NCBI GenBank assembly: GCA_963457665.1
Contig: OY735224.1
Span: 53,798,929-53,862,928, forward strand
Reading direction: 5' to 3'
DNA length: 64,000 nucleotides
Origin: Thysanoteuthis rhombus
Lineage: Eukaryota; Mollusca; Cephalopoda; Oegopsida; Thysanoteuthidae
Shown: piece by piece, positions 5,919 through 48,564 of the stretch
Layout of the letters: each line of letters starts with the position of its first letter
Position numbering within the stretch: position 1 is the stretch's first letter
Position numbers and translations under genes: made by a program
The notes under the pieces: model-generated
Told to the model about the DNA's origin: nothing
Database searches by the model: none
Seen by the model: only the letters and a program-made list of their open reading frames with translations

Positions 5919-5986
<68 letters not shown>

Positions 5987-6420: not shown

Positions 6421-6434
6421 AAAAGAACTATTAC

Positions 6435-10605: not shown

Positions 10606-10731
10606 TTTCTATGAATTCTATATCCTAAAAAGAGGTAATAGTTTGGAAAGGGATGATAGTGCGAAAAAGTATGGGAATACTGGGTTTAATAGTCTTGTTG
10701 ATTTTTTATTGTTTGAATGACATGATATTAC

Positions 10732-11220: not shown

Positions 11221-11224
11221 ATCC

Positions 11225-11445
11225 GGTAGATTTTGACCAGAAATAAATGATTAATTGATTTTCAAACACTTTTTTGATGTGATCTTTGCTCATCAGAATG
11301 ATTTTACAAACACTTAAACAAAAGATAGTCAGTTGGAGCAAGGGCATGAGAGTATAGTGCATAAATCATTTTTTCCAACCAAATACGTCGAGCGGTATGA
11401 GGACATGCATTATCTTGATGAAGAATGACCCCCTTTCAGATCACT
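11225..11445 (-). mobile_element. Mariner-family transposase fragment
   Basis: The minus strand reads HQDNACPHTARRIWLEK near 11407-11365 and HALAPTDYLLFKCL near 11345-11310. These are the second and third acidic motifs of mariner transposases (HDNARPH and LAPSDYHLF), with the spacer between them shortened. Further on, a degraded FWSKSTGFYKF segment fits the FFASKxxEFYxRG end of the protein. The N-terminal part and terminal repeats are missing. It is a dead scrap of a plain DNA transposon. Confidence 0.7.
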
Positions 11446-11539
11446 AAGAATGAATATTTTCTTTCCAATGCCCTTTTCAAAATATAAAATCGTTAGTGGT
11501 AAACTTCAGTTGTGACTGTTTGACTTTTGTTTAAAAGAT

Positions 11540-12842: not shown

Positions 12843-14265
12843 AAGAAAATGTTGGAAACACTGGTTTCAATGCCAAAAACGCTCTCGTCACATGCTTTTT
12901 CAGCATGCTTTTCACACATATTCACATGTTATTACTACATTCGAGAAAATTACAGAAGGAAACATTTTAAACATTGCTTTCCACACCCAAAAGTCTCTTT
13001 TTTTATCCTTTCAGGCTGGCTTTTGACATTTACTTATATATGAATACTACCTTCGATTAGATTGTTTTTAATTTCAGCTTTGAAAAGCATCTTTGAAAGG
13101 TTATTACCTTTAAAAACTAGGTTTCAAAGCTGAAAAGTCCCTTTTATTACCCTTTTAGGCTAGGTTGTGACATGCTGAAAATTCAACCGTATATCATTTA
13201 CACATTGACAAAAAATCATCGAAAAACCATGATGACATTGCTTACAGAGCTGAAAAGACCTTTTCGGGCTCGGTTTTGACATTTAAAGGCGTACTCAAAT
13301 ATCATAACTTCATTCAAGAAATTGTTGAAAAACCTTGAAAACATTTCTCTTATAAGCTAAAAAGGCTCTGTTGATGCCCTTTTCGGCATTCTTTAGACAT
13401 TCGGAAGATAAAATCACGTATTATATTACATTACAGAAAACATGTTCATATATATTCAAGGAAATTGCTTGAAACTATTGAAAACGTTACTTTCAAAGCC
13501 AAAAAAAGGCTTCCCTATAGGTTTTTAGGCTTGGTCTTAACACTTACATGTATAGTATTAGTACATACGTATAAATTGTTAAAAACCTCTAAAACATTGA
13601 TTCCAAAGCTAAAAACACTCTTTTCACAGCCTTTTCGGCTTGGTTTTAACACTTTACAAATTCAATCATTTATCATTGATACATTGGAGAAAATTTGAAA
13701 ACACTTGTTTCCGGGCTAGAAAGTCTCTGTTTATACTCTTTCGGGCTTTATTTTGAGCTTCTCACTCCTATATGACTACTATTTTCAAGATAATCAATGA
13801 AAATCTTGAAAACATTGCTTTCAATGCTATAAAATCTCTGTTCCTGCTTCCTTAGGGCTTAGTTTTGATATTCGGAAATTAAATCATGTATCATTGCTAT
13901 ATTAGGTAAAATTGTTGAATAGCCATGAGAATATGACTTTTCCCAAGCTGAAAAGGCTTCCCTTCATACCTTTATAGGTTTGGTGTCAACAGTCTGAAAA
14001 TTGGATCCTATATTATTAGTGCATTCTAGAAAATTATCGAAAAACTTTGAAAACATTGATTTCGAAGCTGAAAAAGGCTATGTTCGTACTATTTCAGGGT
14101 AGATTTTCAAACTTTCGAAATTCAATCATGTATCATTATAGTTAGATTTAAAGAAAATTGCTCAAAAACATTAGAAACATTGGTTTCCAAAGCTGGAAAC
14201 GATTTTCCGGTCGTTTTGTTTCACATTTAACACTGCTGTTATTAGTACATTCAATAAAATTGTTT
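12843..14265. repeat. Decayed satellite, unit about 115-125 bp
   Basis: About eleven degenerate copies are seen. Each has GAAAACATTG(C)TTTC-AAGCTGAAAA, then a CTCTGTTTATACCCTTTTCGGGCTTGGTTTTGACA-like part (CCTTTTCGGCTTGGTTTTGA), then AAATTCAATCATGTATCATT and ACATTCAAGAAAATTGTTGA. Copies start near 12845, 12965, 13110, 13225, 13330, 13475, 13590, 13690, 13805, 13925, 14045 and 14165. Divergence is high, so this is an old array. LINE copy C ends exactly where it begins. Confidence 0.75.
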
Positions 14266-14271
14266 GGGACA

Positions 14272-15149
14272 TGCTCCCCGAGCCGTAAGTAGCGTCACTC
14301 CGTACACGCTGTAAGTAGCAGAGAGCAGGGGAAAGTCTGTCAGATTGACCAAGCTTTCAACTCACTATTCTCTATAACCCTTCTTCTACACCTTGTGGAA
14401 GTCTCCAATCACATAACTTGCTGCTCCCAAACCCGTGTGCGGAACGGAGGCGTCCACGGTACATGTGCTAACCACCCCGGCTCTCCCGGCTGCCTACCGG
14501 CCCCAAACGCGTGCGACGTCAGCCAGAGATCGAGCAACACTTATCAGGGTCTTCTGCAGCCCACACAGCCGACATCCCCGCCCTGACTTGGGACGGCACA
14601 ATAGTCAAATGGTCGGCTGCCAGTCCTGCTTGGAGGAGCAGGCGGTGGTGTCTGGCGCACACGGCTCGCGTGTCCCTCTTGCTACTCGACATCCAGGCAA
14701 AACGACTTCCCTCCCGGCTAACCGTCCGAGCCATGCTTCCCGACCCGTAAGCAGCGTCACTCCGCACACGCTGCACGCACCAGAGAACAGGGAATAGTCT
14801 CTCAGATCGACTTAGCTTTTCAACTCACTATTCTCTCTAACCCTTCAGCTTGTGGAAGTCTCTAATTACAAACTTGCTGCTCCCCGACCCGTTTGCGGAA
14901 CGAAGCCGTCGACGGTACGAGTAACGACGACCCTCCCTCTCCTGACTGCCTACCGGCCCCAAACGCGTTCGATCACAGGTTTGTTGTGGTGTGGCTTGTG
15001 TTGTCTGCCCAGTCTGAGCCCCGAACGATCAGAGTCGTAGAGAAAGTGAGATGTGTGTAGCAGCCCCAAGGCTAGCCTATCCTCATTCCTAAATATGCTC
15101 CCCTGCCAGTTGTTGTTTGGAACAGGCAGCGGTGGCTGGTGCACCTGGT
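14272..15149 (+). repeat. P repeats, two tandem units (P1, P2)
   Basis: Both units start with ATGCT(C/T)CCCGA.CCGTAAG and GCGTCACTCCG.ACACGCTG, then share a CTCACTATTCTCT..AACCCTTC block, a CTTGTGGAAGTCTC block and a CCTACCGGCCCCAAACGCGT block. P1 (14272-14727) goes on to GAGATCGAGCAACACTTATC. P2 (14728-15149) ends with a TTTGTTGTGGTGTGGCTTGT segment that leads into the Q array. GC content is clearly higher than in the flanks. Open frames through these units lack any domain and I treat them as chance. Confidence 0.75.
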
Positions 15150-15302
15150 TTGCCGATCCCCTTTCCTAAGTTTTTCTTCGTCCCGTAGTCGTCGTCAGGA
15201 ACAGTCTCTGCCCAGGCCAGCAGACCCTCGAGTCCGTCAGTCGGTTAGCGCGTAAAGCAACTCGGTTCGCCTGAACGCAGACTTCGATGTTCGTAGGGCT
15301 TC

Positions 15303-15380
15303 TCGAGGATTGAACTAGAGCCATTTTCTATGGGTCAGAATGCCGACAGCGCGCTCTAACCGGTATGGCAGCATCGGCCA
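15303..15380 (-). repeat. tRNA-like segment, Q unit 1
   Basis: On the minus strand the A-box-like TGCCATACCGG (one mismatch to TRGYNNANNNG) is followed by GTTAGAGCGCG and, about 40 bases on, a B-box-like AGTTCAATCC. The anticodon arm does not fold cleanly, so this is a tRNA-derived promoter module and not a working tRNA. Confidence 0.6.
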
Positions 15381-15847
15381 GAGGTGGGCAGACGTGATGA
15401 ATGCGATAACTGGCTCTGGGAGCGTATTTTAAAAAAAATTTTAAAAGTTGTTACACGAATTCGATGTTTTGACAATGTTAGAGGGAGCACCTTCACGGAG
15501 AGGCTTATCGTGAAGGAACGAGTGTCCGCCCCTGGAAGTGAGTCGGCAGTCTGCCGTAGTCGGCACCGTGTCGTCTTTGATGTCCGCTTCGCCCGGCTAA
15601 GGGACGATCATTGTAAACATTTTATAATTGTCGCGTCGTGACCGTCGAGCACCGTAGAGTGGGGAACGCTGGCTGTCAGAGCTGGCTTGCCTATCCCCTT
15701 TCCTAATTTTTCAAAGTTTTTCTTCGTCCCGTAGTCATAGACAGAAACAGTCTCTGCCCAGGCCTGCAGACCCTCGAGTCCGTCAGTCGGTTAGCGGGAA
15801 AGGAACTCGGTTCGCCAGAACGCAGACTTCGATGTTCGTAGGGCTTT

Positions 15848-15925
15848 TCGAGGATCGAACTAAAGCCATTTTCTATGGGTCAGAATGCCGACAGCGCGCT
15901 CTAACCGGTATGGCAGCATCGGCCA
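15848..15925 (-). repeat. tRNA-like segment, Q unit 2
   Basis: Same module, B box AGTTCGATCC, which fully meets GWTCRANNC. Confidence 0.62.
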
Positions 15926-16393
15926 GAGGCGGGCAGAAGTGATGAATGAGATAACTGGCTCTGGGAGCGTATTTTTAAAAAAATTCCAAAAGTTGTTAAA
16001 CGAATTCGATGTTTTGACAACGTTAGAGGGAGCACCTTCACGGAGAGGCTTATCGTGAAGGAACGAGTGTCCGCCCCGGAAAGTGAGTCAGCGGTCTGCC
16101 GTTGTCGGCATCGTGTCGTCTTTGATGTCCGCTTCGCCCGGCTAAGGGACGATCATTGTAACCATTTTATAATTGTTGCGTCGTGACCGTCGAGCACCGT
16201 AGAGAGGGGAATGCTGGCCGTCGGAGCTGGTTTGCCTATCCCCTTTCCTAATTTTTCAAAGTTTTTCTTCGTCCCGTAGTCGTAGATAGAAACAGTCTCT
16301 GCCCAGGCCTGCAGATCCTCGAGACCGTCAGTCGGTTAGCGGGGAAAGCGACTCGGTTCGCCTGAACGTAGACTTCGATGTTCGTAGGGCTTT

Positions 16394-16471
16394 TCGAGGA
16401 TCGAACTAAAGCCATTTTCTATGGGTCAGAATGCCGACAGCGCGCTCTAACCGGTATGGCAGCATCGGCCA
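16394..16471 (-). repeat. tRNA-like segment, Q unit 3
   Basis: Same module; A and B boxes identical to unit 2. Confidence 0.62.
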
Positions 16472-16926
16472 GTGGTGGGCAGACGTGATGAATGCGATAA
16501 CTGGCTCTGGGAGCGTATTTTTAAAAAAATTTCAAAAGTTGTTACACGAATTCGATGTTTAGACAATATTTGAGGGAGCACCTTCACGGAGAGGCTTATC
16601 GTGAAGGAACGAGTGTCTGCCCCGGAAGGTTAGTCGGCAGTCGGACGTTGTCGGCACCGTCTTGTCTTTGATGTCCGCTTCGCCCGGCTGAGGGACGATC
16701 ATTGTAACCATTTTATAACTGTCACGTCGTGACCGTCGAGCACCGTAGAGAGGGGAACGCTGGCCAGCGCAGCTGGCTTGCCTATCCTCTTTCCTAATTT
16801 TTCAAAGTTTTTCTCCGTCCCGTAGTCTCTGCCCGGGCCTGCAGCAGCCCCTCCAGTCCGTCAGTCGGTTAGCGAATAAAGCAACTCGGTTCGCCTGAAC
16901 GCAGACTTCGATGTTCGTAGGGCTTT

Positions 16927-17004
16927 TCGAGGATCGAACTAAAGCCATTTTCTATGGGTCAGAATGTCGACAGCGCGCTCTAACCGGTATGGCAGCATCG
17001 GCCA
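16927..17004 (-). repeat. tRNA-like segment, Q unit 4
   Basis: Same module with one change between the boxes (GTCGACA in place of GCCGACA on the plus strand). Confidence 0.62.
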
Positions 17005-17165
17005 GAGGTGGGCAGACGTGATGAATGCGATAACTAGCTTTGGGAGCGTATTTTTAAAAAAATTTCAAAAGTTGTTACACGAATTCGATGTCTTGACAAT
17101 GTTAGAGGGAGCACCTTCACGGAGAGGCTTATCGTGAAGGAATGTTTGTCCGCCTCGGGAGGTTA

Positions 17166-18091
17166 GTCGGCCGTTGTCGGCAATGTGTCGTGTTGGATGT
17201 CCGCTTCGCGCGGTTTGGGTGGCAAACGTAATTGTAAACAAAAGGATAACTACGATCTCTTCGTCCTCGTCGGCTCGTCGTCCGCTCGTCGTCCGCTCGT
17301 CGTCTCTTCGTATCGTTCCTTCCCAAACGGTGACTCTGTTGATTCCGAACGTAAACATCGACTGGTACTTACGCGAGCTAGTGGTCCCGGCGTGTAGGTA
17401 GCCAACCGCTGCCCTCTCTTTGCGTCCATCCTCACGCTCTGCTGGGCTACGAGAGAGAGGGAGAGAGATCACTGGATATCGTGACTTGTTTAACATAATC
17501 GCTGCTCCGGGTGGCAAACGTAATTATAAACAAATGTATACCTACGATCTCTTCGTTGTCGTCGTCGGCTCGTCGTCTGCTCGCCGTCTCCTCGTGTCTG
17601 GGCTCCCCATCGTGATCCTGTGGCACCTGCTCTCTTCGCAGGTTCAAGACTAGGGCGTAACTTGAGTCTTCCTCTTCTCGTCACGCCTTTGTTCGCCGTC
17701 TGTCCCATGTCAGTCTTCGCCTGGCGTGTTGGAGCTTCAACCAGAAGTGTCCCAAGTTTTTCTATGTTTTCAGGTCCCCAGCGTCGTACGTTGACCCGTG
17801 CACAGGTTGATGACCACCCAGCACAAACTGTTGGCCGTAGCACTGGTATATACTATTGCTCCGTCACTTGCTGGCAGCCGGTCCGAGGGTGCCGCTGCTG
17901 TCGTCGTGATCCTCTGGTTTGCCTTTCCGTCTTTATCTTCCACTTTCGCCCGTCGTACGGTTCTCCAATCATCCCAGAGGGTTGGCTAGCCCTCTCACTG
18001 AGTCTGGGGTCTCTTAAGCCGGCCAGCTTGCTATTCATCTGGGTGGACTACTGTTCGCCGCTCCCTTTTCTGAAAATATTCAGTCAAACCC
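17166..18091 (+). repeat. T segment, copy 1
   Basis: Long spacer between the Q array and the next P unit, repeated at 20356-21297. It contains two related blocks with GGTGGCAAACGTAATT.TAAACAAA (17217 and 17511), a CGTCGTCGGCTCGTCGTC-type run, a GAGAGAGATCACTGGATATC block, a CAGGTTCAAGACTAGGGCGT block (also in the palindrome further right) and TATATACTATTGCTC near 17847. No domain is visible in any frame. Confidence 0.7.
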
Positions 18092-18967
18092 ATGCCACGC
18101 TCCCCGACCCGTGAGAAGCGTCACTCCACACGCTGTGTGGACCAAAAAATAGAGAAAATCACTCAGATCGACCTAGCTCACTTTTTTCTATAACCCTTCT
18201 TATAGACCTTGTGGAATTCTCCAATCCAGAAACTCCGTGCTCCCCGACATATTGCACAGCGGAGGCATGCACCAGACGAGTGCCACCACCCTCCGTCTCC
18301 CGACTGCATACCCATCCCAAACGCGTGCGACGTCGGCCAGAGATCGAGCAACACTTATCAGGGTCTTCTGCAGCCCACACAGCCGACATCCCCGCCCTGA
18401 CTTGGGACGGCACAATAGTCAAATGGTCGGCTGCCAGTCCTGCTTGGAGGAGCAGGCGGTGGTGTCTGGCGCACACGGCTCGCGTGTTCCTCTTGCTACT
18501 CGACATCCAGGCAAAACGACTTCCCTCCCGGCTAACCGTCCGAGCCATGCTTCCCGACCCGCAAGCAGCGTCACTCCGCACACGCTGCACGCACCGGAGA
18601 ACAGGGGAAAGTCTCTCAGATCGACTTAGCTTTTCAACTCACTATTCCCTATAACCCTCCTTCTACAGCTTGTGGAAGTCTCCAATTACAAACTTGCCGC
18701 TCCCCTACAAGTTTGCAGAACGAAGCCGTCGACGGTACAAGTAACGACGACCCTCCCTCTCCTGACTGCCTACCGGCCCCGAACACGTTCGATCACAGGT
18801 TTGCTGTGGTGTGGCTTGTGTTGCCTGCCCAGTCTGAGCCCCGAACGATCAGAGTCGTAGAGGAAGTGAAATGTGTGTAGCAGCCCCAAGGCTAGCCTCT
18901 CCTCCTTCCTAAATATGGTCCCCTGCCAGTTGTTGTTTGGAACGGGCAGCGTTGGCTGGTGCACCTG
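18092..18967 (+). repeat. P repeats, two tandem units (P3, P4)
   Basis: P3 (18092-18546) and P4 (18547-18967) repeat the P1-P2 pair. From the GAGATCGAGCAACACTTATC block to the end of P4 they are almost the same as 14525-15149. The first 250 bp of P3 is a diverged version shared with 21298-21540 instead. Confidence 0.75.
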
Positions 18968-19131
18968 GTTTGCCTATCCCCTTCCCTAATTTTTCAAAGT
19001 TTTTCTTCGTCCCGTAGTCGTAGACAGAAACAGTCTCTGCCCGGGCCTGCAGACCCTCGAGTTCGTCAGTCGGTTAGCGTGGAAAGCAACTTGGTTCGCC
19101 TGAACGCAGACTTCGATGTTCGTAGGGGTTT

Positions 19132-19209
19132 TCGAGGATCGAACTAAAGCCATTTTCTATCGGTCAAAATGTCGACAGCACACTCTAACCGGTATGGCAG
19201 CATCGGCCA
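19132..19209 (-). repeat. tRNA-like segment, Q unit 5
   Basis: Same module with several changes between the boxes (GTGTGCTGTCGAC on the minus strand). A and B boxes are kept. Confidence 0.6.
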
Positions 19210-19669
19210 GAGGTGGGCAGACGTGATGAATGCAATAACTGGCTCTTGAAGCGTATTTTTAAAAAAATTTCAAAAGTTGTTACACGAATTCGATGTTTTG
19301 ACAATGTTAGAGGGAGCACCTTCACGGAGAAGCTTATCTTGAAGGAACGTTTGTCCGCCCCGGGAGGTTAGTCGGCCGTTGTCGGCACCGTGTCGTCTTT
19401 GATGTCCGCTTCGCCCGGCTAAGGGACGATCATTGTAACCATTTTATAATTGTCGAGTCGTGAACGTCGAGCACCGTACTGAGGGGAACGCTGACTGTCG
19501 GAGCTGGTTTGCCTATCCCCTCTCCTAATTTTTCAAAGTTTTTCTTCGTCCCGTAGTCGTACACAGAGACAGTCTCTGCCCAGGCCTGCAGCCCCCCAGT
19601 CCGTCAGTCGGTTAGCGTAGAAAGCGATTCGGTTCGCCTGAACGCAGACTTCGATGTTCGTAGGGTTTT

Positions 19670-19747
19670 TCAAGGATCGAACTAAAGCCATTTTCTATGG
19701 GTCAGAATGCCGACAGCGCGCTCTAACCGGTATGGCAGCATCGGCCA
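19670..19747 (-). repeat. tRNA-like segment, Q unit 6
   Basis: Same module. B box AGTTCGATCC kept; the base after it changes (TTG for TCG). Confidence 0.62.
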
Positions 19748-20164
19748 GAGGTGGGCAGACGTGATGAATGCGATAACTGGCTTTTTTTTTGACAATATTA
19801 GAGGGAGCACCTTCACGGAAAGGCTTATCGTGAAGGAACGTTTGTCCGCCCCGGGAGGTTAGTCGGCCGTTGTCAGCGCCGTGTCGTCTTTGATGTCCGC
19901 TTCGCCGGGCTAAGGGACGATCATTGTAAACATTTTATAATTGTCGCGTCGTGACCGTCGAGCACCGTAGAGAGGGGAACGCTGGCTGGCGCAGCTTGCT
20001 TGCCTATCCCCTTTCCTAATTTTTCAAAGTTTTTCTTCGTCCCGTAGTAGTAGACAGAAACAGTCTCTGCCCGGGCCTGCAGCAGCCCCTCCAGTCCGTC
20101 AGTCGGTTAGCGTGGAAAGCGACTCGGTTCGCCTGAACGCAGACTTCGATGTTCGTAGGGTTTT

Positions 20165-20242
20165 TCAAGGATCGAACTAAAGCCATTTTCTATGGGTCAG
20201 AATGCCGACAGCGCGCTCTAACCGGTATGGCAGCATCGGCCA
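20165..20242 (-). repeat. tRNA-like segment, Q unit 7
   Basis: Same module as unit 6; the flanking AGAGGTGGGC is changed to AACGAGGG. Confidence 0.62.
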
Positions 20243-20355
20243 AACGAGGGTAGACGTGACCAATGCGATAACTGGCTTTTTTTTTGACAATATTAGAGGG
20301 AGCACCTTCACGGAAAGGCTTATCGTGAAGGAACGTTTGTCCGCCCCGGGAGGTT

Positions 20356-21297
20356 AGTCGGCCGTTGTCGGCAATGTGTCGTGTTGGATGTCCGCTTCGC
20401 GCGGTTCGGGTGGCAAACGTAATTGTAAACAAAAGGATAACTACGATCTTTTCGTCCTCGTCGGCTCTTAGTATCGTTCCTTCCCAAACGGTTACTCTGT
20501 TGATTTCGAACGTAAACATCGACTGGTACTTATGCGAGCTAGTGGTCCCGGCGTGTAGGTAGCCAACCGCTGCCCTCTCTTCGCGTCCAACCTCACGGTC
20601 TGCTGGGCTACGAGCGAGAGAGAGAGAGAGAGGGAGAGAGATCACTGGATATCGTGACTTATTTAACATAATCGCTGTTTCGGGTGGCAAACGTAATTAT
20701 AAACAAATGTATACCTACGATCTCTTCGTCGTCGTCGTCGGCTCGCCGTCTCCTCGTGTCTGGGCTCCCCATTGTGATCCTCAGGCACCTGCTCTCTTCT
20801 CAGGTTTAAGACTAGGGCGTAACTTGAGTCTTCCTCTCCTCGTCACGCCTCTGTTCGCCGTCTGTCCCGTGTCAGTCCTCGCCTGGCGTGTTGGAGCTTC
20901 AACCAAAAGTGTCCCAAGTTTTCTTCTATGTTTACAGGTCCCCAGCGTCGTATGTTGACCCGTGGACAGGTTGATGGTCACCCAGCGTAAACTGTTGGTC
21001 GTAGCACTGATATATACTATTGCTCTGTCACTTGCTGGCAGCCGGTCCGAGGATGCCGCCGCTGTCGTCGTGATCCTCTGGTTTGCCTTTCCGTCTTTAT
21101 CTTTCACTTTCGCCCGTCGTACGGTTCTCCAATCACCCAGTGGGGTGGTTAGCCCTCTCACCGAGTCTGGGGCCTCTTAAGCCGGCTAGCTTGCTATTCA
21201 TCTTGACTGATTGCTGTTCGCCGCTCCCTTTTCTATATTGCGTATCGTTCACTTGCGGCGCATCCAGACTAGTCTGAAAATATTCTGTCAAACCCAT
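20356..21297 (+). repeat. T segment, copy 2
   Basis: Second copy of 17166-18091, with the CGTCGTC runs shortened and a (GA)n run at 20613-20639. It carries the same TATATACTATTGCTC block (21012-21026). Confidence 0.7.
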
Positions 21298-21600
21298 GAC
21301 ATGCTCCCCGACCCGTAAGAAGCGTCACTCCACACGCTGTGTGGACCAAAAAATAGAGAAAATCACTCAGATCAACCTAGCCTTCCAACTCACTTTCTTC
21401 TATAACCATTCTTATGGACATTTTGGAATTCTCCAATCCAGAAACTCCGTGCTCCCCGACATATTGCACAGCGGAGGCATGCACCAGACGAGTGCCACCA
21501 CCCTCCGTGTCCCAACTGCATACCCATCCCAAACGCCTACCACGTGGGCCAGAGATCCACTCACACTTATCAGGCTGTCCTAAGGCCACCCACAAAGCCG
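21298..21600 (+). repeat. P repeat, truncated fifth unit (P5)
   Basis: This matches 18092-18400 closely up to about 21540, then diverges and stops. It is the last recognisable P unit of the compound array. Confidence 0.7.
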
Positions 21601-21868
21601 ACATCCACGCCCTGGGACGGACACTACGGACACCCCTCACCAATAACCGTCCCAGCCATGCTACGTGGGCCTTACAAAAACCTAATAACACCAGCTCCAT
21701 CGATCGATCGAGCGAGCAACCGATCTCTGCCTCACGTGCTACGCGTTTCGGGCCGCCGCTACGCTGTCGGGAGACAGACGGACGGATGGTGGTGGCACTC
21801 CAACCGTCGATGCCTTCTTCGTTCCGTGCACGGATCTGGGAGCATCGAGTCTCTTGATCGGGGCAACC
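21601..21868. other. Unique spacer before the palindrome
   Basis: No match to P, Q or T. It contains CGATCGATCGAGCGAGC at 21700-21716. A 255-codon open frame on the minus strand (21377-22144) runs through here and into the palindrome, but it has no recognisable domain and is built mostly from repeat sequence. Confidence 0.5.
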
Positions 21869-22273
21869 TACGACGCTAGGGACCTGTAAACATAGAAGAA
21901 AACTTGGGACACTTTTGGTTGAAGCTCCAACACGCCAGGCGAGGACTGATACGGGACAGACGGCGAACAGAGGCGTGACGAGAAGAGGAAGACTCAGCTT
22001 ACGCCCTAGTCTTGAACCTGAGAAGAGAGCAGGTGCCGCAGGATCACGCTCTCTCTCTCGAAGTCCGTCCCGGCTGACCGCTGTCTCCGTCAGCTTGCTT
22101 CGTTTATCGTGATCCTGGGGCACTTGCTCTCTTCTCAGGTTCAAGACTAGGGCGTAAGCTAAGTCTTCCTCTTCTCGTTAGTCCTCTTTTCGCCGTCTTC
22201 CCCGTGTCAGTCTTGGAGCTTCAACCAAAAGTGTCCCAAGTTTTCTTCTATGTTTACATGTCCCCAGCGTCGT
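21869..22273. repeat. Large inverted repeat (about 170-bp arms, 59-bp loop)
   Basis: The left arm 21869-22048 is the reverse complement of the right arm 22108-22273, with a few mismatches and a deletion of about 15 bases in the right arm. Each arm is a copy of the CAGGTTCAAGACTAGGGCGT to CCCCAGCGTCGTA part of the T segment (compare 17605-17790 and 20775-20957), so the palindrome is two T pieces placed head to head. Confidence 0.85.
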
Positions 22274-22426
22274 ACGTTGACCCGTGTACAGGTTGATGAC
22301 CACCCAGCACAAACTGCTGGTCGTAGCACTGATATAGTATACTATTTCTCGGTCACTTGCTGGCAGCTAGTCCAAGGTTGCCGTTGCCGTTGCCAACATC
22401 TACCGCAGCCGTCTCTTACGCTAAGC

Positions 22427-22473
<47 letters not shown>

Positions 22474-22477
22474 GAGA

Positions 22478-22541
<64 letters not shown>

Positions 22542-22562
22542 AACGGACAGACGGACAGACAG
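22427..22562 (+). repeat. (GA)n then (GACA)n microsatellite
   Basis: Pure and near-pure GA dinucleotides (22429-22519) followed by seven or so GACA units and GGACAGAC variants to 22562. Confidence 0.92.
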
Positions 22563-22564
22563 AG

Positions 22565-22738
22565 AAAAAACGGTGACTGTTGATTTCGAACGTAAACATC
22601 GACTGGTACTTGTGTAGGCTAGCAGTCCAAGCGTGTAGGTAGCCAACCACAGCCATCTCTTCGCATCCGGCCTCACGCTCCGTTGCGTTACGAGAGAGAG
22701 AGAGAGAGATCACTGGATATCATGACTTGTTTAACATA
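22565..22738 (+). repeat. Truncated T-segment piece
   Basis: This resembles 17328-17492 and 20488-20665 (GACTGTTGATTTCGAACGTA, GTAGGTAGCCAACC, GAGATCACTGGATATC, TTGTTTAACATA). The similarity stops at about 22738, where the 5S-like tail begins. Confidence 0.65.
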
Positions 22739-22741
22739 GCC

Positions 22742-22769
22742 CAGTTTGGGAACACCAGGAACAGTGAGC
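22742..22769 (+). rRNA. 5S rRNA relic, 3' end only
   Basis: TTTGGGAACACCAGGAACAG then TGAGC lines up with the last ~27 nt of animal 5S rRNA (CTTGGGAAxACCxGGTGxTGTxGGC). A run of nine T's follows after 10 bases (22780-22788), as in a Pol III terminator. The final GTGAGC can pair with the first six bases of the next 5S-like copy (GCTTAC, one G-U), as helix I of 5S requires. The rest of this copy is lost at the junction with the T segment. Confidence 0.6.
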
Positions 22770-22779
22770 AAGACAAATC

Positions 22780-22788
22780 TTTTTTTTT
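22780..22788 (+). terminator. T-run, Pol III terminator-like
   Basis: Nine T's lie 10 bases after the end of the 5S-like tail. Confidence 0.5.
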
Positions 22789-22839
22789 CGCACCCCCCGT
22801 CCAGTTTTCAACCAGATTCTTTAAACGTTGTGAAACCGA

Positions 22840-22845
22840 TATAAG
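22840..22845 (+). promoter_or_regulatory. TATA-like site upstream of 5S relic
   Basis: TATAAG lies 24 bases before the inferred 5S start at 22864. Many invertebrate 5S genes have a TATA-like element near -25 to -30. Function is inferred from position only. Confidence 0.45.
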
Positions 22846-22863
22846 CCCCTGAATTCAGCACTT

Positions 22864-22948
22864 GCTTACATTCAAATCACGCTGGGAGTACCAGTTCTTG
22901 TTCGATCACCAATGTTAGGCAGCATCGAGCCTGATCAGTACTTAAATG
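22864..22948 (+). rRNA. 5S rRNA relic, 5' 85 nt, fused to satellite
   Basis: The blocks CACGCTG, GTTCTTGTTCGATCACC, TTAGGCAGC, TCGAGCC and AGTACTTAAATG occur in 5S order with exactly the animal 5S spacing: 14 nt before CACGCTG, 26 from CACGCTG to GATCACC, 4 to TTA, and 13 from GCAGC to AGTACTT. The internal control region (A-box like TTAGGCAGC, C-box like AGTACTTAAATG) is present but mutated. Most differences look like C-to-T or G-to-A transitions. The sequence breaks at about nucleotide 85 and passes straight into a satellite monomer. It is either the edge of a decayed tandem 5S cluster or a 5S-derived SINE. The T run and helix-I pairing with the copy before it favour the former. Confidence 0.75.
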
Positions 22949-25082
22949 TTAGAAATGCATTTTCGGCCAATAGCAGCTATTTCCATCAAATTAGGCTGAA
23001 TCGAAAAATACATCAAATCCACCCGATCCAATGGTACCGTTGCAATCAGCACGTCAAACTACGCCAGAAAAAGCCATAAAATCGATAGGTAAAAATGACA
23101 TTCAAAAGACCATTTTTGATGGCTCCCTTATGGAAGTGCCTTCTCGACCAATAGTGGCTTTTTCCATCAAATTGGGCTGAGTTGAAAATTACATCAAATC
23201 CACCCGATCCAATGGTACCGTTGCAATCAGCACGTCAAACTACGCCAGAAAAAGCCATAAAATCGATAGGTAAAAATGACATTCAAAAGACCATTTTTGA
23301 TGGCTCCCTTATGGAAGTGCCTTCTCGACCAATAGCGGCTTTTTCCATCAAATTGGGCTGAGTTGAAAATTACATCAAATCCACCCGATCCAATGGTACC
23401 GTTGCAATCAGCACGTCAAACTACGCCAGAAAAAGCCATAAAATCGATAGGTAAAAATGACATTCAAAAGACCATTTTTGATGGCTCCCTTATGGAAGTG
23501 CCTTCTCGACCAATAGCGGCTTTTTCCATCAAATTGGGCTGAGTCGAAAAATACATCAAATCCATCCGATCCAATGGTACCGTTGCAATCAGCACGTCAA
23601 ACTACGCCAGAAAAAGCCATAAAATCGATAGGTAAAAATGACATTCAAAAGACCATTTTTGATGGCTCCCTTATGGAAGTGCCTTCTCGAGCAATAGCAG
23701 TTTTTTCCATCAAATTGGGCTTAGTCGAAAAATACATCAAATCCACCCGATCCAATGGTACTGTTGCAATCAGCACGTCAAACTACGTCAGAAAAAGCCA
23801 TAAAATCGATAGGTAAAAATGACATTCAAAAGACCATTTTTGATGGCTCCCTTATGGAAGTGCCTTCTCGACCAATAGCGGCTTTTTCCATCAAATTGGG
23901 CTGAGTCGAAAAATACATCAAATCCACCCGATCCAATGGTACCGTTGCAATCAGCACGTCAAACTACGCCAGAAAAAGCCATGAAATCGATAGGTAAAAA
24001 TGACATTCAAAAGACCATTTTTGATGGCTCCCTCATGGAAGTGCCTTCTCGACCAATAGCGGCTTTTTCCATCAAATTGGGTTGAGTCGGAAAATACATC
24101 AAATCCACCCGATCCAATGGTACCGTTGCAATCAGCACGTCAAACTACGCCAGAAAAAGCCATAAAATCGATAGGTAAAAATGACATTCAAAAGACCATT
24201 TTTGATGGCTCCCTTATGGAAGTGCCTTCTCGACCATTAGCGGCTTTTTCCATCAAATTGGGCTGAGTCGAAAAATACATCAAATCCACCCGATCCAATG
24301 GTACCGTTGCAATCAGCACGTCAAACTACGCCAGAAAAAGCCATAAAATCGAACGGTAAAAATGACATTCAACGGACCATTTTTGATGGCTCCCTTATGG
24401 AAGTGCCTTCTCGACCAATAGCGGCTTTTTCCATCAAATTGGGCTGAGTCGAAAAATACATCAAATCCACCCGATCCAATGGTACCGTTGCAATCAGCAC
24501 GTGAAACTACGCCAGAAAAAGCCATAAAATCGATAGGTAAAAATGACATTCAAAAGACCATTTTTGATGGCTCCCTTATGGAAGTGCCTTCTCGACCAAT
24601 AGCGGCTTTTTCCATCAAATTGGGCTGAGTCGAAAAATACATCAAATCCACCCGATCCAATGGTACCGTTGCAATCAGCACGTCAAACTACGCCAGGAAA
24701 AGCCATAAAATCAATGGGTAAAAATGACATTCAAAAGACCATTTTTGATGGCTTACTGATGTGTGCAGTAGAAATGCATTTTCGGTCAATATTGACTTTT
24801 TCCATCAAATTGGGCTGAGTCGAAAAATACATCAAATCCACCCGATCCAATGGTACCGTTGCAATCAGCACGTCAAACTACGCCAGAAAAAGCCATAAAA
24901 TCGATAGGTAAAAATGACATTCAAAAGACCATTTTTGATGGCTCCCTCATGGAAGTGCCTTCTCGACCAATAGCGGCTTTTTCCATCAAATTGGGCTGAG
25001 TCGAAAAATACATCAAATCCACCCGATCCAATTGTACCGTTGCAATCAGCACGTCAAACTACGCCAGGAAAAGCCATAAAAT

Positions 25083-28000
25083 CGAACGGTAAAAATGACA
25101 TTCAAAAGACCATTTTTGATGGCTCCCTCATGGAAGTGCCTTCTCGACCAATAGCGGCTTTTTCCATCGAATTGGGCTGAGTCGAAAAATACATCAAATC
25201 CACCCGATCCAATGGTACCGTTGCAATCAGCACGTCAAACTACGCCAGAAAAAGCCATAAAATCGATAGGTAAAAATGACATTCAAAAGACCATTTTTGA
25301 TGGCTCTCTTATGGAAGTGCCTTCTCGACCAATAGCGGCTTTTTCCATCGAATTGGGCTGAGTCGAAAAATACATCAAATCCACCCGATCCAATGGTACC
25401 GTTGCAATCAGCACGTCAAACTACACCAGAAAATCCATAAAATCGATAGGTAAAAATGACATTCAAAAGACCATTTTTGATGGCTCCCTTATGGAAGTGC
25501 CTTCCCGACCAATAGCAGCTTTTTCCATCAAATTGGGCTGAGTCGAAAAATACATCAAATCCACCCGATCCAATGGTACCGTTGCAATCAGCACGTCAAA
25601 CTACGCCAGAAAAAGCCATAAAATCGATAGGTAAAAATGACATTCAAAAGACCATTTTTGATGGCTCCCTTATGGAAGTGCCTTCTCGACCAATAGCGGC
25701 TTTTTCCATCAAATTGGGCTGAGTCGAAAAATACATCAAATCCACCCGATCCAATTGTACCGTTGCAATCAGCACGTCAAACTACGCCAGAAAAAGCCAT
25801 AAAATCGATAGGTAAAAATGACATTCAAAAGACCATTTTTGATGGCTCCCTTATGGAAGTGCCTTCTCGACCAATAGCGGCTTTTTCCATCAAATTGGGC
25901 TGAGTCGAAAAATACATCAAATCCACCCGATCCAATGGTACCGTTGCAATCAGCACGTCAAACTACGCCAGGAAAAGCCATAAAATCGAACGGTAAAAAT
26001 GACATTCAAAAGACCATTTTTGATGGCTCCCTCATGGAAGTGCCTTCTCGACCAATAGCGGCTTTTTCCATCAAATTGGGCTGAGTCGAAAAATACATCA
26101 AATCCACCCGATCCAATGGTACCGTTGCAATCAGCACGTCAAACTACGCCAGAAAAAGCCATAAAATCGATAGGTAAAAATGACATTCAAAAGACCATTT
26201 TTGATGGCTCTCTTTTGGAAGTGCCTTCTCGACCAATAGCGGCTTTTTCCATCGAATTGGGCTGAGTCGAAAAATACATCAAATCCACCCGATCCAATGG
26301 TACCGTTGCAATCAGCACGTCAAACTACGCCAGAAAAAGCCATAAAATCGATAGGTAAAAATGACATTCAAAAGACCATTTTTGATGGCTCCCTTATGGA
26401 AGTGCCTTCCCGACCAATAGCAGCTTTTTCCATCAAATTGGGCTGAGTCGGAAAATACATCAAATCCACCCGATCCAATGGTACCGTTGCAATCAGCACG
26501 TCAAACTACGCCAGAAAATCCATAAAATCGATAGGTAAAAATGACATTCAAAAGACCATTTTTGATGGCTCCCTTATGGAAGTGCCTTCTCGACCAATAG
26601 CGGCTTTTTCCATCAAATTGGGCTGAGTAGAAAAATACATCAAATCCACCCGATCCAATGGTACCGTTGCAATCAGCACGTCAAACTACGCCAGAAAAAG
26701 CCATAAAATCGATAGGTAAAAATGACATTCAAAAGACCATTTTTGATGGCTCCCTTATGGAAGTGCCTTCTCGACCAATAGCGGCTTTTTCCATCAAATT
26801 GGGCTGAGTCGAAAAATACATCAAATCCACCCGATCCAATTGTACCGTTGCAATCAGCACGTCAAACTACGCCAGAAAAAGCCATAAAATCGATAGGTAA
26901 AAATGACATTCAAAAGACCATTTTTGATGGCTCCCTTATGGAAGTGCCTTCTCGACCAATAGCGGCTTTTTCCATCAAATTGGGCTGAGTCGAAAAATAC
27001 ATCAAATCCACCCGATCCAATGGTACCGTTGCAATCAGCACGTCAAACTACGCCAGGAAAAGCCATAAAATCGAACGGTAAAAATGACATTCAAAAGACC
27101 ATTTTTGATGGCTCCCTCATGGAAGTGCCTTCTCGACCAATAGCGGCTTTTTCCATCAAATTGGGCTGAGTCGAAAAATACATCAAATCCACCCGATCCA
27201 ATGGTACCGTTGCAATCAGCACGTCAAACTACGCCAGAAAAAGCCATAAAATCGATAGGTAAAAATGACATTCAAAAGACCATTTTTGATGGCTCTCTTA
27301 TGGAAGTGCCTTCTCGACCAATAGCGGCTTTTTCCATCGAATTGGGCTGAGTCGAAAAATACATCAAATCCACCCGATCCAATGGTACCGTTGCAATCAG
27401 CACGTCAAACTACGCCAGAAAAAGCCATAAAATCGATAGGTAAAAATGACATTCAAAAGACCATTTTTGATGGTTCCCTTATGGAAGTGCCTTCCCGACC
27501 AATAGCAGCTTTTTCCATCAAATTGGGCTGAGTCGGAAAATACATCAAATCCACCCGATCCAATGGTACCGTTGCAATCAGCACGTCAAACTACGCCAGA
27601 AAATCCATAAAATCGATAGGTAAAAATGACATTCAAAAGACCATTTTTGATGGCTCCCTTATGGAAGTGCCTTCTCGACCAATAGCGGCTTTTTCCATCA
27701 AATTGGGCTGAGTAGAAAAATACATCAAATCCACCCGATCCAATGGTACCGTTGCAATCAGCACGTCAAACTACGCCAGAAAAAGCCATAAAATCGATAG
27801 GTAAAAATGACATTCAAAAGACCATTTTTGATGGCTCCCTTATGGAAGTGCCTTCTCGACCAATAGCGGCTTTTTCCATCAAATTGGGCTGAGTCGAAAA
27901 ATACATCAAATCCACCCGATCCAATGGTACCGTTGCAATCAGCACGTCAAACTACGCCAGAAAAAGCCATAAAATCGATAGGTAAAAATGACATTCAAAA
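25083..28000 (+). repeat. Higher-order repeat, 6-mer of 1085 bp
   Basis: Marker variants recur at 1085 bp: CAGAAAATCCATAAAATCG at 25427, 26512 and 27597, and CGAACGGTAAAAATG at 25987 and 27072 (also 25083). The first copy lacks one monomer between its two markers (344 bp apart instead of 525). Confidence 0.85.
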
Positions 28001-31000
28001 GACCATTTTTGATGGCTCCCTTATGGAAGTGCCTTCTTGACCAATAGCAGTTTTTTCCATCAAATTGGGCTGAGTCGAAAAATACATCAAATCCACCCGA
28101 TCCAATGGTACCGTTGCAATCAGCACGTCAAACTACGCCAGAAAAAGCCATAAAATCGATAGGTAAAAATGACATTCAAAAGACCATTTTTGATGGCTCC
28201 CTTATGGAAGTGCCTTCTCGACCAATAGCGGCTTTTTCCATCAAATTGGGCTGAGTCGAAAAATACATCAAATCCACCCGATCCAATGGTACCGTTGCAA
28301 TCAGCACGTCAAACTACGCCAGAAAAAGCCATAAAATCGATAGGTAAAAATGACATTCAAAAGACCATTTTTGATGGCTCCCTTATGGAAGTGCCTTCCC
28401 GACCAATAGCGGCTTTTTCCATCAAATTGGGCTGAGTCGAAAAATACATCAAATCCACCCGATCCAATGGTACCGTTGCAATCAGCACGTGAAACTACGC
28501 CAGAAAAAGCCATAAAATCGATAGGTAAAAATGACATTCAAAAGAAATTTTTGATGGCTCCCTTATGGAAGTGCCTTCTCGACCAATAGCGGCTTTTTCC
28601 ATCAAATTGGGCTGAGTCGAAAAATACATCAATTTCACCCGATCCAATGGTACCGTTGCAATCAGCACGTCAAACTACGCCAGAAAAAGCCATAAAATCG
28701 ATAGGTAAAAATGACATTCAAAAGACCATTTTTGATGGTTCCCTTATGGAAGTGCCTTCTCGACCAATAGCGGCTTTTTCCATCAAACTGGGCTGAGTCG
28801 AAAAATACATCAGATCCACCTGATCCAATGGTACCGTTGCAATCAGCACGTCAAACTACGCCAGAAAAAGCCATAAAATCGATAGGTAAAAATGACATTC
28901 AAAAGACCATTTTTGATGGCTCCCTTATGGAAGTGCCTTCTCGACCAATAGCGGCTTTTTCCATCAAATTGGGCTGAGTAGAAAAATACATCAAATTCAC
29001 CCGATCCAATGGTACCGTTGCAATCAGCACGTCAAACTACGCCAGAAAAAGCCATAAAATCGATAGGTAAAAATGACATTCAAAAGACCAATTTTGATGG
29101 CTCCCTTATGGAAGTGCCTTCTCGACCAATAGTGGCTTTTCCATCAAATTGGGCTGAGTCGAAAAATACATCAGATCCACCCGATCCAATGGTACCATTG
29201 CAATCAGCACGTCAAACTACGCCAAAAAAAGCCATAAAATCGATGGGTAAAAATGACATTCAAAAGACCATTTTTGATGGGTCCCTTATGGAATGCCTTC
29301 TCGACCAATAGCAGCTTTTTCCATCAAATTGGGCTGAATCGAAAAATACATCAGATCCACCCGATCCAATGGTACCGTTGCAATCAGCACGTCAAACTAC
29401 GCCAGAAAAAGCCATAAAATCGATAGGTAAAAATGACATTCAAAAGACCATTTTTGATGGCTCCCTTATGGAAGTGCCTTCTCGACCAATAGCGGCTTTT
29501 TCCATCAAATTGGGCTGAGTCGAAAAATACACCGAATCCACCCGATCCAATGGTACTGTTGCAATCAGCACGTCAAACTACGCCAGAAAAAGCCATAAAA
29601 TCGATAGGTAAAAATGACATTCAAAAGACCATTTTTGATGGCTCCCTTATGGAAGTGCCTTCTCGACCAATAGCGGCTTTTTCCATCAAATTGGGCTGAG
29701 TCGAAAAATACATCAAATCCACCCGATCCAATGGTACCGTTGCAATAAGCACGTCAAACTACGCCAGAAAAAGCCATAAAATCGATCGGTAAAAATGACA
29801 TTCAAAAGACCATTTTTGATGGCTCCCTTATGGAAGTGCCTTCTCGACCAATAGCGGCTTTTTCCATCAAATTGGGCTGAGTCGAAAAATACATCAAATC
29901 CACCCGATCCAATGGTATCGTTGCAATCAGCACGTCAAACTACGCCAGAAAAAGACATAAAATCGATAGGTAGAAATGACATTCAAAAGACCATTTTCGA
30001 TGGCTCCCTTATGGAAGTGCCTTCTCGACCAATAGCGGCTTTTTCCATCAAATTGGGCTGAGTCGAAAAATACATCAAATCCACCCGATCCAATGGTACC
30101 GTTGCAATCAGCACGTCAAACTACGCCAGAAAAAGCCATAAAATCGATAGGTAAAAATGACATTCAAAAGACCATTTTTGATGGCTCCCTTATGGAAGTG
30201 CCTTCTCGACCAATAGCGGCTTTTTCCATCAAATTGGGCTGAGTCGAAAAATACATCAAATCCACCCGATCCAATGGTACCGTTGAAATCAGCACGTCAA
30301 ACTACGCCAGAAAAAGCCATAAAATCGATAGGTAAAAATGACATTCAAAAGACCATTTTTGATGGCTCCCTTATGGAAGTGCCTTCTCGACCAATTGCAG
30401 CTTTTTCCATCAAATTGGGCTGAGTCGAAAAATACATCAAATCCACCCGATCCAATGGTACCGTTGCAATCAGCACGTCAAACTACGCTAGAAAAAGCCA
30501 TAAAATCGATAGGTAAAAATGACATTCAAAAGACCATTTTTGATGGCTCCCTTATGGAAGTGCCTTCTCGACCAATAGCGGCTTTTTCCATCAAATTGGG
30601 CTGAGTCGAAAAATACATCAAATCCACCCGATCCAATGGTACCGTTGCAATCAGCACGTCAAACTACGCCAAAAAAAGCCATAAAATCGATAGGTGAAAA
30701 TGACATTCAAAAGACCATTTTTGATGGCTCCCTTATGGAAGTGCCTTCTCGACCAATAGCGGCTTTTTCCATCAAATTGGGCTGAGTCGAAAAATACGTC
30801 AAATCCACCCGATCCAATGGTACCGTTGCAATCAGCACGTCAAACTACGCCAGAAAAAGCCATAAAATCGATAGGTAAAAATGACATTCGAAAGACCATT
30901 TTTGATGGCTCCCTTATGGAAGTGCCTTCTCGACCAATAGCGGCTTTTTCCATCAAATTGGGCTGAGTCGAAAAATACATCAAATCCATCCGATCCAATG

Positions 31001-34000
31001 GTACCGTTGCAATCAGCACGTCATACTACGCCAGAAAAAGCCATAAAATCGATAGGTAAAAATGACATTCAAAAGACCATTTTTGATGGCTCCCTTATGG
31101 AAGTGCCTTCTCGACCAATTGCGGCTTTTTCCATCAAATTGGGCTGAGTCGAAAAATACATCAAATCCACCCGATCCAATGGTACCGTTGCAATCAGCAC
31201 GTCAAACTACGCTAGAAAAAGCCATAAAATCGATAGGTAAAAATGACATTCAAAAGACCATTTTTGATGGCTCCCTTATGGAAGTGCCTTCTCGACCAAT
31301 AGCGGCTTTTTCCATCAAATTGGGCTGAGTCGAAAAATACATCAAATCCACCCGATCCAATGGTACCGTTGCAATCAGCACGTCAAACTACGCCAGAAAA
31401 AGCCATAAAATCGATAGGTGAAAATGACATTCAAAAGACCATTTTTGATGGCTCCCTTATGGAAGTGCCTTCTCGACCAATAGCGGCTTTTTCCATCAAA
31501 TTGGGCTGAGTCGAAAAATACATCAAATCCACCCGATCCAATGGTACCGTTGCAATCAGCACGTCAAACTACGCCAGAAAAAGCCATACAATCGATAGGT
31601 AAAAATGACATTCAAAAGACCATTTTTGATGGTTCTCTTATGGAAGTGCCTTCTCGACCAATAGCGGCTTTTTCCATCGAATTGGGCTGAATTGGAAAAT
31701 ACATCAAATCCACACGATATAATGGTACCTTTGCAATCAGCACGTCATACTACGCCAGAAAAAGCCATAAAATCGATAGGTAAAAATGACATTCAAAAGA
31801 CCATTTTTGATGGCTCCCTTATGGAAGTGCCTTCTCGACCAATAGCGGCTTTTTCCATCAAATTGGGCTGAGTCGAAAAATACATCAAATCCACCCGATC
31901 CAATGGTACCGTTGCAATCAGCACGTCAAACTACGCCAGAAAAAGCCATAAAATCGATAGGTAAAAATGACATTCAAAAGACCATTTTTGATGGCTCCCT
32001 TATGGAAGTGCCTTCTCGACCAATAGCGGCTTTTTCCATCAAATTGGGCGGAGTCGAAAAATACATCAAATCCACCCGATCCAATGGTACCGTTGCAATC
32101 AGCACGTCAAACTACGCCAGAAAAAGCCATAAAATCGATAGGTAAAAATGACATTCAAAAGACCATTTTTGATGGCTCCCTTATGGAAGTGCCTTCTCGA
32201 CCAATAGCAGCTTTTTCCCTCAAATTAGGCTGAGTTGAAAAATACATCAAATCCACCCGATCCAATGGTACCGTTGCAATCAGCACGTCAAACTACGCCA
32301 GAAAAAGCCATAAAATCGATAAGTAAAAATGACATTCAAAAGACCATTTTTGATGGCTCCCTTATGGAAGTGCCTTCTCGACCAATAGCGGCTTTTTCCA
32401 TCAAATTGGGCTGAGTCGAAAAATACATCAAATCCATCCGATCCAATGGTACCGTTGCAATCAGCACGTCAAACTACGCCAGAAAAAGCCATAAAATCGA
32501 TAGGTAAAAATGACATTCAAAAGACCATTTTTGATGGCTCCCTTATGGAAGTGCCTTCTCGACCAATAGCAGCTTTTTCCATCAAATTGGGCTGAGTCGA
32601 AAAATACATCAAATCCACCCGATCCAATGGTACCGTTGCAATCAGCACGTCAAACTACGCCAGAAAAAGCCATAAAATCGGTAGGTAAAAATGACATTCA
32701 AAAGACCATTTTTGATGGCTCCCTTATGGAAGTGCCTCCTCGACCAATAGCGGCTTTTTCCATCAAATTGGGCTGAGTCGAAAAATACATCAAATCCACC
32801 CGATCCAATGGTACCGTTGCAATCAGCACGTCAAACTACGCTAGAAAAAGCCATAAAATCGATAGGTAAAAATGACATTCAAAACACCATTTTTGATGGC
32901 TCCCTCATGGAAGTGCCTTCTCGACCAATAGCGGCTTTTTCCATCAAATTGGGCTGAGTCGAAAAATACATCAAATCCACCCGATCCAATGGTACCGTTG
33001 CAATCAGCACGTCAAACTACGCCAGAAAAAGCCATAAAATCGATAGGTAAAAATGACATTCAAAAGACCATTTTTGATGGCTCCCTTATGGAAGTGCCTT
33101 CTCGACCAATAGCGGCTTTTTCCATCAAATTGGGCTGAGTCGAAAAATACATCAAATCCACCCGATCCAATGGTACCGTTGCAATCAGCACGTCAAACTA
33201 CGCCAGAAAAAGCCATAAAATCGATAGGTAAAAATGACATTCAAAAGACTATTTTTGATGGCTCCCTTATGGAAGTGCCTTCTCGACCAATAGCGGCTTT
33301 TCCCATCAAATAGGGCTGAGTCGAAAAATACATCAAATCCACCCTATCCAATGGTACCGTTGCAATCAGCACGTCAAACTACGCCAGAAAAAGCCATAAA
33401 ATTGATAGGTAAAAATGACATTCAAAAGACCATTTTTGATGGCTCCCTTATGGAAGTGCCTTCTCGACCAATAGCGGCTTTTCCCATCAAATTGGGCGGA
33501 GTCGAAAAATACATCAAATCCACCCGATCCAATGGTACCGTTGCAATCAGCACGTCAAACTACGCCAGAAAAAGCCATAAAATCGATAGGTAAAAATGAC
33601 ATTCAAAAGACCATTTTTGATTGCTCCCTTATGGAAGTGCCTTCTCGACCAAAAGCGGCTTTTTCCATCAAATTTGGCTGAGTCGAAAAATACATCAAAT
33701 CCACCCGATCCAATGGTACCGTTGCAATCAGCACGTCAAACTACGCCAGAAAAAGCCATGAAATCGATAGGTAAAAATGACATTCAAAAGACCATTTTTG
33801 ACGGCTTACTGATGTGTGCAGTAGAAATGCATTATTGGTCAATATTGACTTTTTCCATCAAATTGGGCTGAGTCGAAAAATACATCAAATCCACCCGATC
33901 CAATGGTACCGTTGCAATCAGCACGTCAAACTACGCCAGAAAAAGCCATAAAATCGATAGGTAAAAATGACATTCAAAAGACCATTTTTGATGGCTCCCT

Positions 34001-34147
34001 TATGGAAGTGCCTTCTCGACCAATAGCGGCTTTTTCCATCAAATTGGGCTGAGTCGAAAAATACATCAAATCCACCCGATCCAATGGTACCGTTGCAATC
34101 AGCACGTCAAACTACGCCAGAAAAAGCCATTAAATCGATAGGTAAAA

Positions 34148-48200: not shown

Positions 48201-48564
48201 GCCTTCTCGACCAATAGCGGCTTTTTCCATCAAATTCGGCTGAGTCAAAAAATACATCAAATCCACCCGATCCAATAGTACCGTTGCAATCAGCACGTCA
48301 AACTACGCCAGAAAAAGCCATAAAATCGATAGGTAAAAATGACATTCAAAAGACCATTTTTGACGGTTTACTGATGTGTGCGGTAGAAATGCATTATCGG
48401 TCAATATTGACTTTTTCCATCAAATTGGGCTGGGTCGAAAAATACATCAAATCCACCCGATCCAATGGTACCGTTGCAATCAGCACGTCAAACTACGCCA
48501 GAAAAAGCCATAAAATCGATAGGTAAAATGACATTCAAAAGACCATTTTTGATGGCTCCCTTAT

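Follow-up and report, generated by a model that had tools for sequence, protein, structure and literature searches.

How did a fragment of a 5S ribosomal RNA gene come to form the boundary between a GC-rich repeat block and a long satellite array near a chromosome end of the cephalopod Thysanoteuthis rhombus? The window analysed here is a stretch of 64,000 nucleotides (C29:53798929-53862928) on contig C29, which is 54,156,971 bp long and ends on the right about 0.29 Mb past the window; the genome searched comprises 2.73 Gb in 514 contigs. The features of the window on which the argument draws are the following.

14200..22428, + strand: GC-rich compound repeat block, 5′ of the 5S remnant (53% GC)
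22429..22745, + strand: GA/GACA microsatellite and a linker of about 170 bp that reaches the 5S tail (sequence and repeat calling)
22746..22769, + strand: 5S tail, nt 95-118 of the 5S rRNA gene (alignment to the C25 5S unit)
22770..22863, + strand: 5S intergenic spacer of 94 bp, homologous to the spacer of the C25/C438 class (alignment)
22780..22788, + strand: T9 run past the 5S tail, resembling a Pol III terminator (direct reading)
22840..22845, + strand: TATAAG, a TATA-like site at -24 (direct reading)
22864..22948, + strand: 5S head, nt 1-85 (85 nt), truncated within the gene (RF00001 match of 31.4 bits; percentage identities)
22949..48564, + strand: terminal satellite, mostly of a 181-bp monomer (sequence; Tandem Repeats Finder, which calls the array from 22952)
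48765..64000, - strand: the same satellite family with a 190-bp monomer (Tandem Repeats Finder; orientation determined separately)

A preliminary description of this DNA had placed the 3′ tail of a 5S copy, a T9 run, a spacer, a TATA-like site at -24 and an 85-nt head between the GC-rich compound block and the satellite, and all of these are present in the sequence at that place. The start of the tail needed correction, as it is at 22746 and not at 22742; the spacer measures 94 bp (22770-22863). The first six bases of the head can pair with the last six of the tail, as had been proposed (GCTTAC at 22864-22869 with GTGAGC at 22764-22769, including one G-U pair). Alignment of 22742-22948 to the doubled 209-bp 5S unit of contig C25 gave a local score of 177, compared with 26 for the best of 300 shuffles, and alignment to the 5S gene of contig C7 gave a score of 75, compared with 24 for the best of 300 shuffles. 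Since the former is a real 5S unit from the same genome, these alignments settle the identity of the remnant and bear out the claim that it is derived from 5S. Tail, T run, spacer and head all align to the C25 unit, as expected for an origin from a 5S unit complete with its spacer, and a T/C-rich run in that unit occupies the position that matches the T9 of the window.

The covariance-model search that the preliminary description had proposed as a check gave a divided answer. Of the Rfam families, RF00001 gives the best match in the window (22864-22978, 31.4 bits; E-values of 0.00042 over 1.6 kb and 0.017 over 64 kb), but the score falls short of the gathering score of 38 bits, and the last 30 of the 115 matched bases, about a quarter, are satellite and not 5S. 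Taken strictly, for the window copy this is the outcome that the preliminary description had named as refuting. An Rfam scan of 13 related loci at E <= 0.1 detected 5S in seven, with scores of 31.4 to 41.9 bits; the two best (38.8 and 41.9 bits) exceed the cut-off, and the other six loci gave no 5S match; two short-form loci scored 28.0 and 26.0 bits with RF00001. The remnant is not a contiguous gene of about 119 nt with all helices, since nt 86-94 are gone, the order is permuted and satellite cuts the gene. Moreover, the 85-nt head folds no better than its shuffles (z -0.16; 80 of 200 shuffles were as good). No second 5S unit was found elsewhere in the 64-kb window, and ARAGORN with bacterial settings detected no tRNA genes in it. 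Matches to VA RNA, DUF2800, SNORD44 and SCARNA7 were far under cut-off and were disregarded.

Tail and head had been taken for a broken pair of 5S copies with an implied unit of about 215 bp. The true unit of the C25/C438 class is 209-211 bp, and the sole part of the gene that the remnant lacks in comparison with a full unit is nt 86-94. Therefore, the remnant appears better read as nearly one unit, permuted and short of 9 nt, than as two distant fragments of a pair. The TATA-like site of this source class lies at -28, and those of the C7 and C20 units, whose spacers differ from that of the remnant, lie at about -28 to -29 (read by eye). Six of the 28 full copies of the remnant described below retain four extra nucleotides 5′ of the gene, which place the site at -28 and which are absent from the window copy.

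The 5S genes of this genome that could have supplied the unit fall into several classes. The C20 class has at least 46 places at 27.92-28.06 Mb (family search, best 47 of 77,246 candidates, including one on C7), and a query with a 5S unit (best 38 of 1,870 scored) found further C7 units at 10.61-10.75 Mb. In the units fetched, the spacing was about 700-720 bp on C20 and 297 bp on C7. A third class, about 90-92% identical to these main classes, has units of 209-211 bp and is found on C25 and C438. The first 9,990 bp of C438 contain 46 genes of identical sequence with 112.8 bits each and one deleted copy with 75.7 bits; two of the three genes in the last stretch of this array (C438:1-11170; L060, L071) score 110 bits, and the array stops at about 11.17 kb. 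The array near the end of C25 is heterogeneous (C25:56698086-56708943; L009, L010), with 52 5S matches of 55.6 to 112.8 bits, and 49 extracted genes have a mean identity of 94.2% to the C438 gene. 5S clusters in the company of the satellite, for which the preliminary description had suggested a genome search, exist on both contigs: the C25 array is followed by an inverted piece of spacer and then by satellite, and C438, which is 357.5 kb long and opens as a 5S array, has the satellite of the window as its last 2 kb. The inverted spacer on C25 (L010:2944-3038) creates a palindrome ahead of the satellite and represents a second, different 5S/satellite join. On the same contig, nine equal-scoring haemocyanin-domain matches about 2.18 kb apart (C25:56607734-56625492), about 72-90 kb from the 5S array, look like a single haemocyanin unit that has expanded in tandem. 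Haemocyanin beta-sandwich domains gave 52 matches in the genome in total, as expected of a mollusc, and the one domain compared with solved structures has 6r83, a squid haemocyanin, as its best relative, which makes a cephalopod likely. Inside C438, degenerate TTAGGG-like DNA (C438:180000-180800; L070) appears to be what is left of an interstitial telomere.

The C438 gene differs from that of C7 at 10 of 118 sites and from that of C20 at 11 sites. In helix I, C9-G110 is replaced by T9-A110 and G7-T112 by G7-C112. The composition of the C438 array together with the paired change in helix I suggests that this class is, or recently was, a working 5S gene, and it could possibly be a tissue- or stage-specific 5S. 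The third class is also the likely source of the remnant, judging from the characters that the copies share with it. The head in the window is 84.7% identical to the C438 5S gene and 77.6% identical to each of the C7 and C20 genes. Among six head sites at which C438 differs from both other classes, four carry the C438 letter in all 28 full copies and a fifth does so in 27 of them (sites 9, 12, 25, 39 and 71). Nucleotide 63, which is A in the C438 array, is the older C in 26 of the 28 copies; thus, the C438 array of today would be related to the donor as a sister, and the donor was probably an earlier member of the C438/C25 class.

Copies of the remnant are dispersed in the genome. A 249-bp query across the join gave 88 matches (best 39 of 361 candidates scored; all counts are lower bounds). 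Of these, at least 28 represent full or nearly full copies and six are shorter, with the head and the join alone; 50 fall in the C25 array, two (C19 and C1, among the matches listed) are isolated 5S-like copies that lack the join, and two match satellite only. All 34 copies of the first two kinds, 28 full and six shorter ones, were extracted; they are distributed over 16 contigs. In all 34, 5S nt 85 is joined to satellite, as seen by base-by-base alignment in the 28 and by a spanning BLAST match in the six (L030 was also read), where the copies were drawn from a query that crosses the join and that also found join-less 5S matches on C25, C19 and C1. The 5S tail was aligned in the 28 full copies, with L027 lacking most of it, and the linker is 85.5-97.1% identical in other copies where it aligned as linker. 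The satellite lies 3′ of the 5S in each of 26 copies (23 loci) mapped in detail, and pieces of the GC-rich block lie 5′ of it in 24 of these (the exceptions are L016 and L021); eight copies outside the detailed map (L002-L007, L031, L033) show the identical 5S-satellite join. C29 itself carries seven full copies, with about 94-100% identity to the window across 249 bp. Because one and the same join recurs in all extracted copies at many chromosome ends, we infer one old capture event whose product was copied around. An island between inverted 5S copies on C44 and C26 was considered as a mobile element and rejected, since its flanking satellites run opposite ways; it more probably belongs to a larger inverted arrangement.

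For the 32 of the 34 copies that are on 14 large contigs, the distance to a contig end is at most 1.13 Mb, and for 31 of these it is at most 0.77 Mb; the remaining two copies are on the small contigs C73 and C294. Eight contig ends were read, of which six consist of satellite (L029, L037-L041) and two open in N. At the left end of C29 the N is followed by a (CCCTAA)n tract of about 3.5 kb and, within about 50 bp, by satellite; at the left end of C44 neither telomere tract nor satellite was found within 9.9 kb. Satellite next to telomere repeats was therefore seen at one of the eight ends, that of C29, and the telomere tract was absent from the other seven. The copies share breakpoints near the ends of several contigs, as subtelomeric duplicons do, and a telomere tract identifies one of these contig ends, the left end of C29, as a chromosome end. 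The closest relative of the window copy is on C45 (98.1% identical over 3.2 kb), compared with 93.4-94.2% over 3.2 kb for its neighbours on C29 (L001-L004, L007). Furthermore, 181-bp monomers follow the window and C45 copies and 190-bp monomers follow those neighbours. As the window copy is thus nearer to C45 than to its own neighbours in identity as well as in monomer length, we read the pattern as an indication that exchange between chromosome ends is continuing. The copies on C44 and C35 have their nearest relatives at the opposite end of their own contig (98.3% and 91.6%). The left (L017) and right (L015) ends of C44 carry the same pair of 5S-bounded islands, mirror-placed and 98.3% alike at the 5S, which could represent either end-to-end exchange within one chromosome or a misplaced haplotype copy.

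Taken together, it is very probable that one 5S unit of the C25/C438 class was captured beside the terminal satellite and then spread among chromosome ends as a fossil. Long ago, a single unit of the subtelomeric 209-211-bp class would have been captured next to the satellite, leaving a permuted unit that runs from nt 95-118 through the spacer to nt 1-85. The event would have cost 9 nt and truncated the gene at nt 85. Subtelomeric duplication and exchange may then have carried the composite of GC-rich block, 5S fossil and satellite from one chromosome end to others, with local amplification on C29. Capture could have proceeded by insertion of a single-unit 5S circle, or by a break-induced join or template switch between a 5S array and adjoining satellite. 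A near-unit length would arise by chance in about 1 in 10 cases by our estimate, and thus lends the single-circle route weak support; with the C25 array next to this satellite, it is easy to picture a break or a switch of template between them. Against this explanation stand the score of the window copy under the Rfam cut-off and the six of 13 related loci without a 5S match. The finding bears on mechanism and would add no new kind of element. The remnant behaves as part of a subtelomeric duplicon, of which the 5S unit appears to be the satellite-side edge.

The preliminary description had favoured a local origin, in which the satellite invaded, or grew out of, the edge of a 5S cluster at this very site. 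The setting that it envisaged does exist in this genome, where at the end of C25 an array of the same class stands beside the same satellite with an inverted spacer piece as the junction, and C438 also combines the two. At this locus, however, the join is the one common to all 34 extracted copies at many chromosome ends, which largely refutes a local edge, and the window contains no additional 5S unit; we therefore regard an eroded cluster edge here as unlikely.

A different possibility is that the remnant has a function, and its mode of change bears on this. Mean pairwise identity among 22 copies (six near-identical ones dropped) was 0.845 in the head and 0.834 in the satellite next to it, with values of 0.876 in the tail and 0.901 in the spacer from -54 to -13; Fitch counts over 23 copies (five dropped) gave 1.28, 1.56, 1.12 and 0.98 changes per site, respectively, and 1.54 for the A box/IE part of the head. 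The rates of head and satellite showed no detectable difference (1.28 versus 1.56, p 0.15). Constraint on the 5S head was sought in these 22-23 copies and not found, and within the power of the test the head is not detectably protected. Over the spacer from -54 to -13 the rate is lower than in the satellite (0.98 versus 1.56 per site, p 0.013, uncorrected), a weak hint of some constraint beyond pure drift; for spacer against head, p is 0.16. Given the truncation of the head and a rate of change that is not measurably below that of the satellite, the 5S gene in the remnant is probably dead, and what is left would be a fossil and not a promoter.

These data can be set against the proposal that the remnant binds Pol III factors and either separates the GC-rich block from satellite chromatin or starts satellite transcription. 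Its position at the satellite edge, pointing into the satellite in all 26 mapped copies, and the low rate of change of the spacer with the TATA-like site would fit such a boundary or promoter. However, position and direction are already explained by single ancestry, the A box/IE stretch is as variable as the satellite (1.54 versus 1.56 changes per site), and the gene is cut at nt 85, which we take to fall inside box C. This explanation is thus quite unlikely. We would give a slimmer chance still to the version in which the remnant has been kept at the satellite edge because its spacer and what is left of the internal promoter have retained the ability to recruit Pol III factors, providing a chromatin boundary or the start of a satellite or telomere-side transcript at many ends; if true, a ribosomal gene unit would have been turned into an organiser of subtelomeres.

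SINEs with 5S heads exist, and the remnant could in principle be the head of a SINE3-like retroposon with a 5S promoter. The preliminary description had named a dispersed SINE head as the finding that would speak against it, and such dispersal was not seen: among the matches listed, isolated 5S-like copies were C19 and C1 for the 249-bp query (86.2 and 68.3 bits) and C4:79107793 (L064; 71.5 bits) and C29:36940860 (L065; 109.9 bits, nearly the score of an array gene) for the 5S-unit query. These four are what could be cited for a SINE. In contrast, the full copies have 5S spacer and tail ahead of the head, satellite and no retroposon body follows the head in 26 of 26 mapped copies, the copies sit near contig ends, and the two isolated copies whose flanks were read (C19 and C1) lack an A-rich tail downstream of the 5S, all of which makes a SINE extremely improbable. 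Equally hard to credit is that the satellite itself descends from 5S rDNA, like PcP190 of frogs, with the remnant as intermediate: its 181-190-bp monomer comes fairly close to the 5S unit in length, but nothing above shuffles was found in eight of eight comparisons (two monomers against 5S unit and 5S gene, both strands), and we rejected the satellite as a 5S derivative.

Capture followed by spread would place the remnant among known kinds of chromosome-end DNA. Animal subtelomeric duplicons have common breakpoints near many chromosome ends, some of which are nearly identical. The copies described here resemble them in their common breakpoints and near-identical ends, with telomere repeats by the satellite at one end. 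We know of no animal subtelomeric duplicon with a 5S rDNA unit as its satellite edge, and the 5S-satellite join is undescribed in the titles and abstract openings of the literature found by a limited search. Being one recognisable join at many chromosome ends, it could serve as a tracer for subtelomeric DNA that moves between chromosomes. Moreover, a divergent and apparently maintained third 5S class that is linked with telomere-side satellite provides a case for sequence exchange between rDNA arrays and satellites.

Partial parallels are found in other systems. PcP190 of frogs is a satellite whose monomer has a 5S-like part (PMC11675491), and the likeness lies in the passage of 5S rDNA into non-genic repeats and in several 5S classes within one genome; in PcP190, however, the 5S-like part is within each monomer, whereas here none is detectable in the satellite and the 5S stands at a block boundary. 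Human cells have been shown to contain circular multimers of 5S rDNA (PMC3225859). Had a one-unit circle inserted, the product would be a permuted single unit, as found here, although insertion beside the satellite would in our case be deduced from unit length. In the tapeworm Caryophyllaeus laticeps, a subtelomeric 5S rDNA locus, single by FISH, has been described (PMC12274263), which is similar in having a 5S cluster near a chromosome end and differs in being one locus, as compared with arrays and dispersed satellite-fused fossils in T. rhombus.

Several further features of the window concern the flanks of the remnant. CpG observed/expected is 1.05 over 14200-22740, compared with 0.68 over 1-14200, and is also 1.0-1.12 in the satellite arrays. 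The 14200-22740 block carries long direct and inverted repeats and presumably resembles CpG-rich subtelomeric promoters. Fourteen open reading frames of at least 120 aa were found in 1-23000, and three of them were sent to Pfam: the frame at 11857-12378 gave a weak RVT_1 match below the curated cut-off, and the other two gave no Pfam match. The frames at 4845-5276 and 11857-12378 are reverse-transcriptase-like and resemble each other. At the join with the 5S, the satellite monomer looks like the kind of about 190 bp, and at 48565-48764 the satellite flips its orientation as the monomer length passes from 181 to 190 bp.
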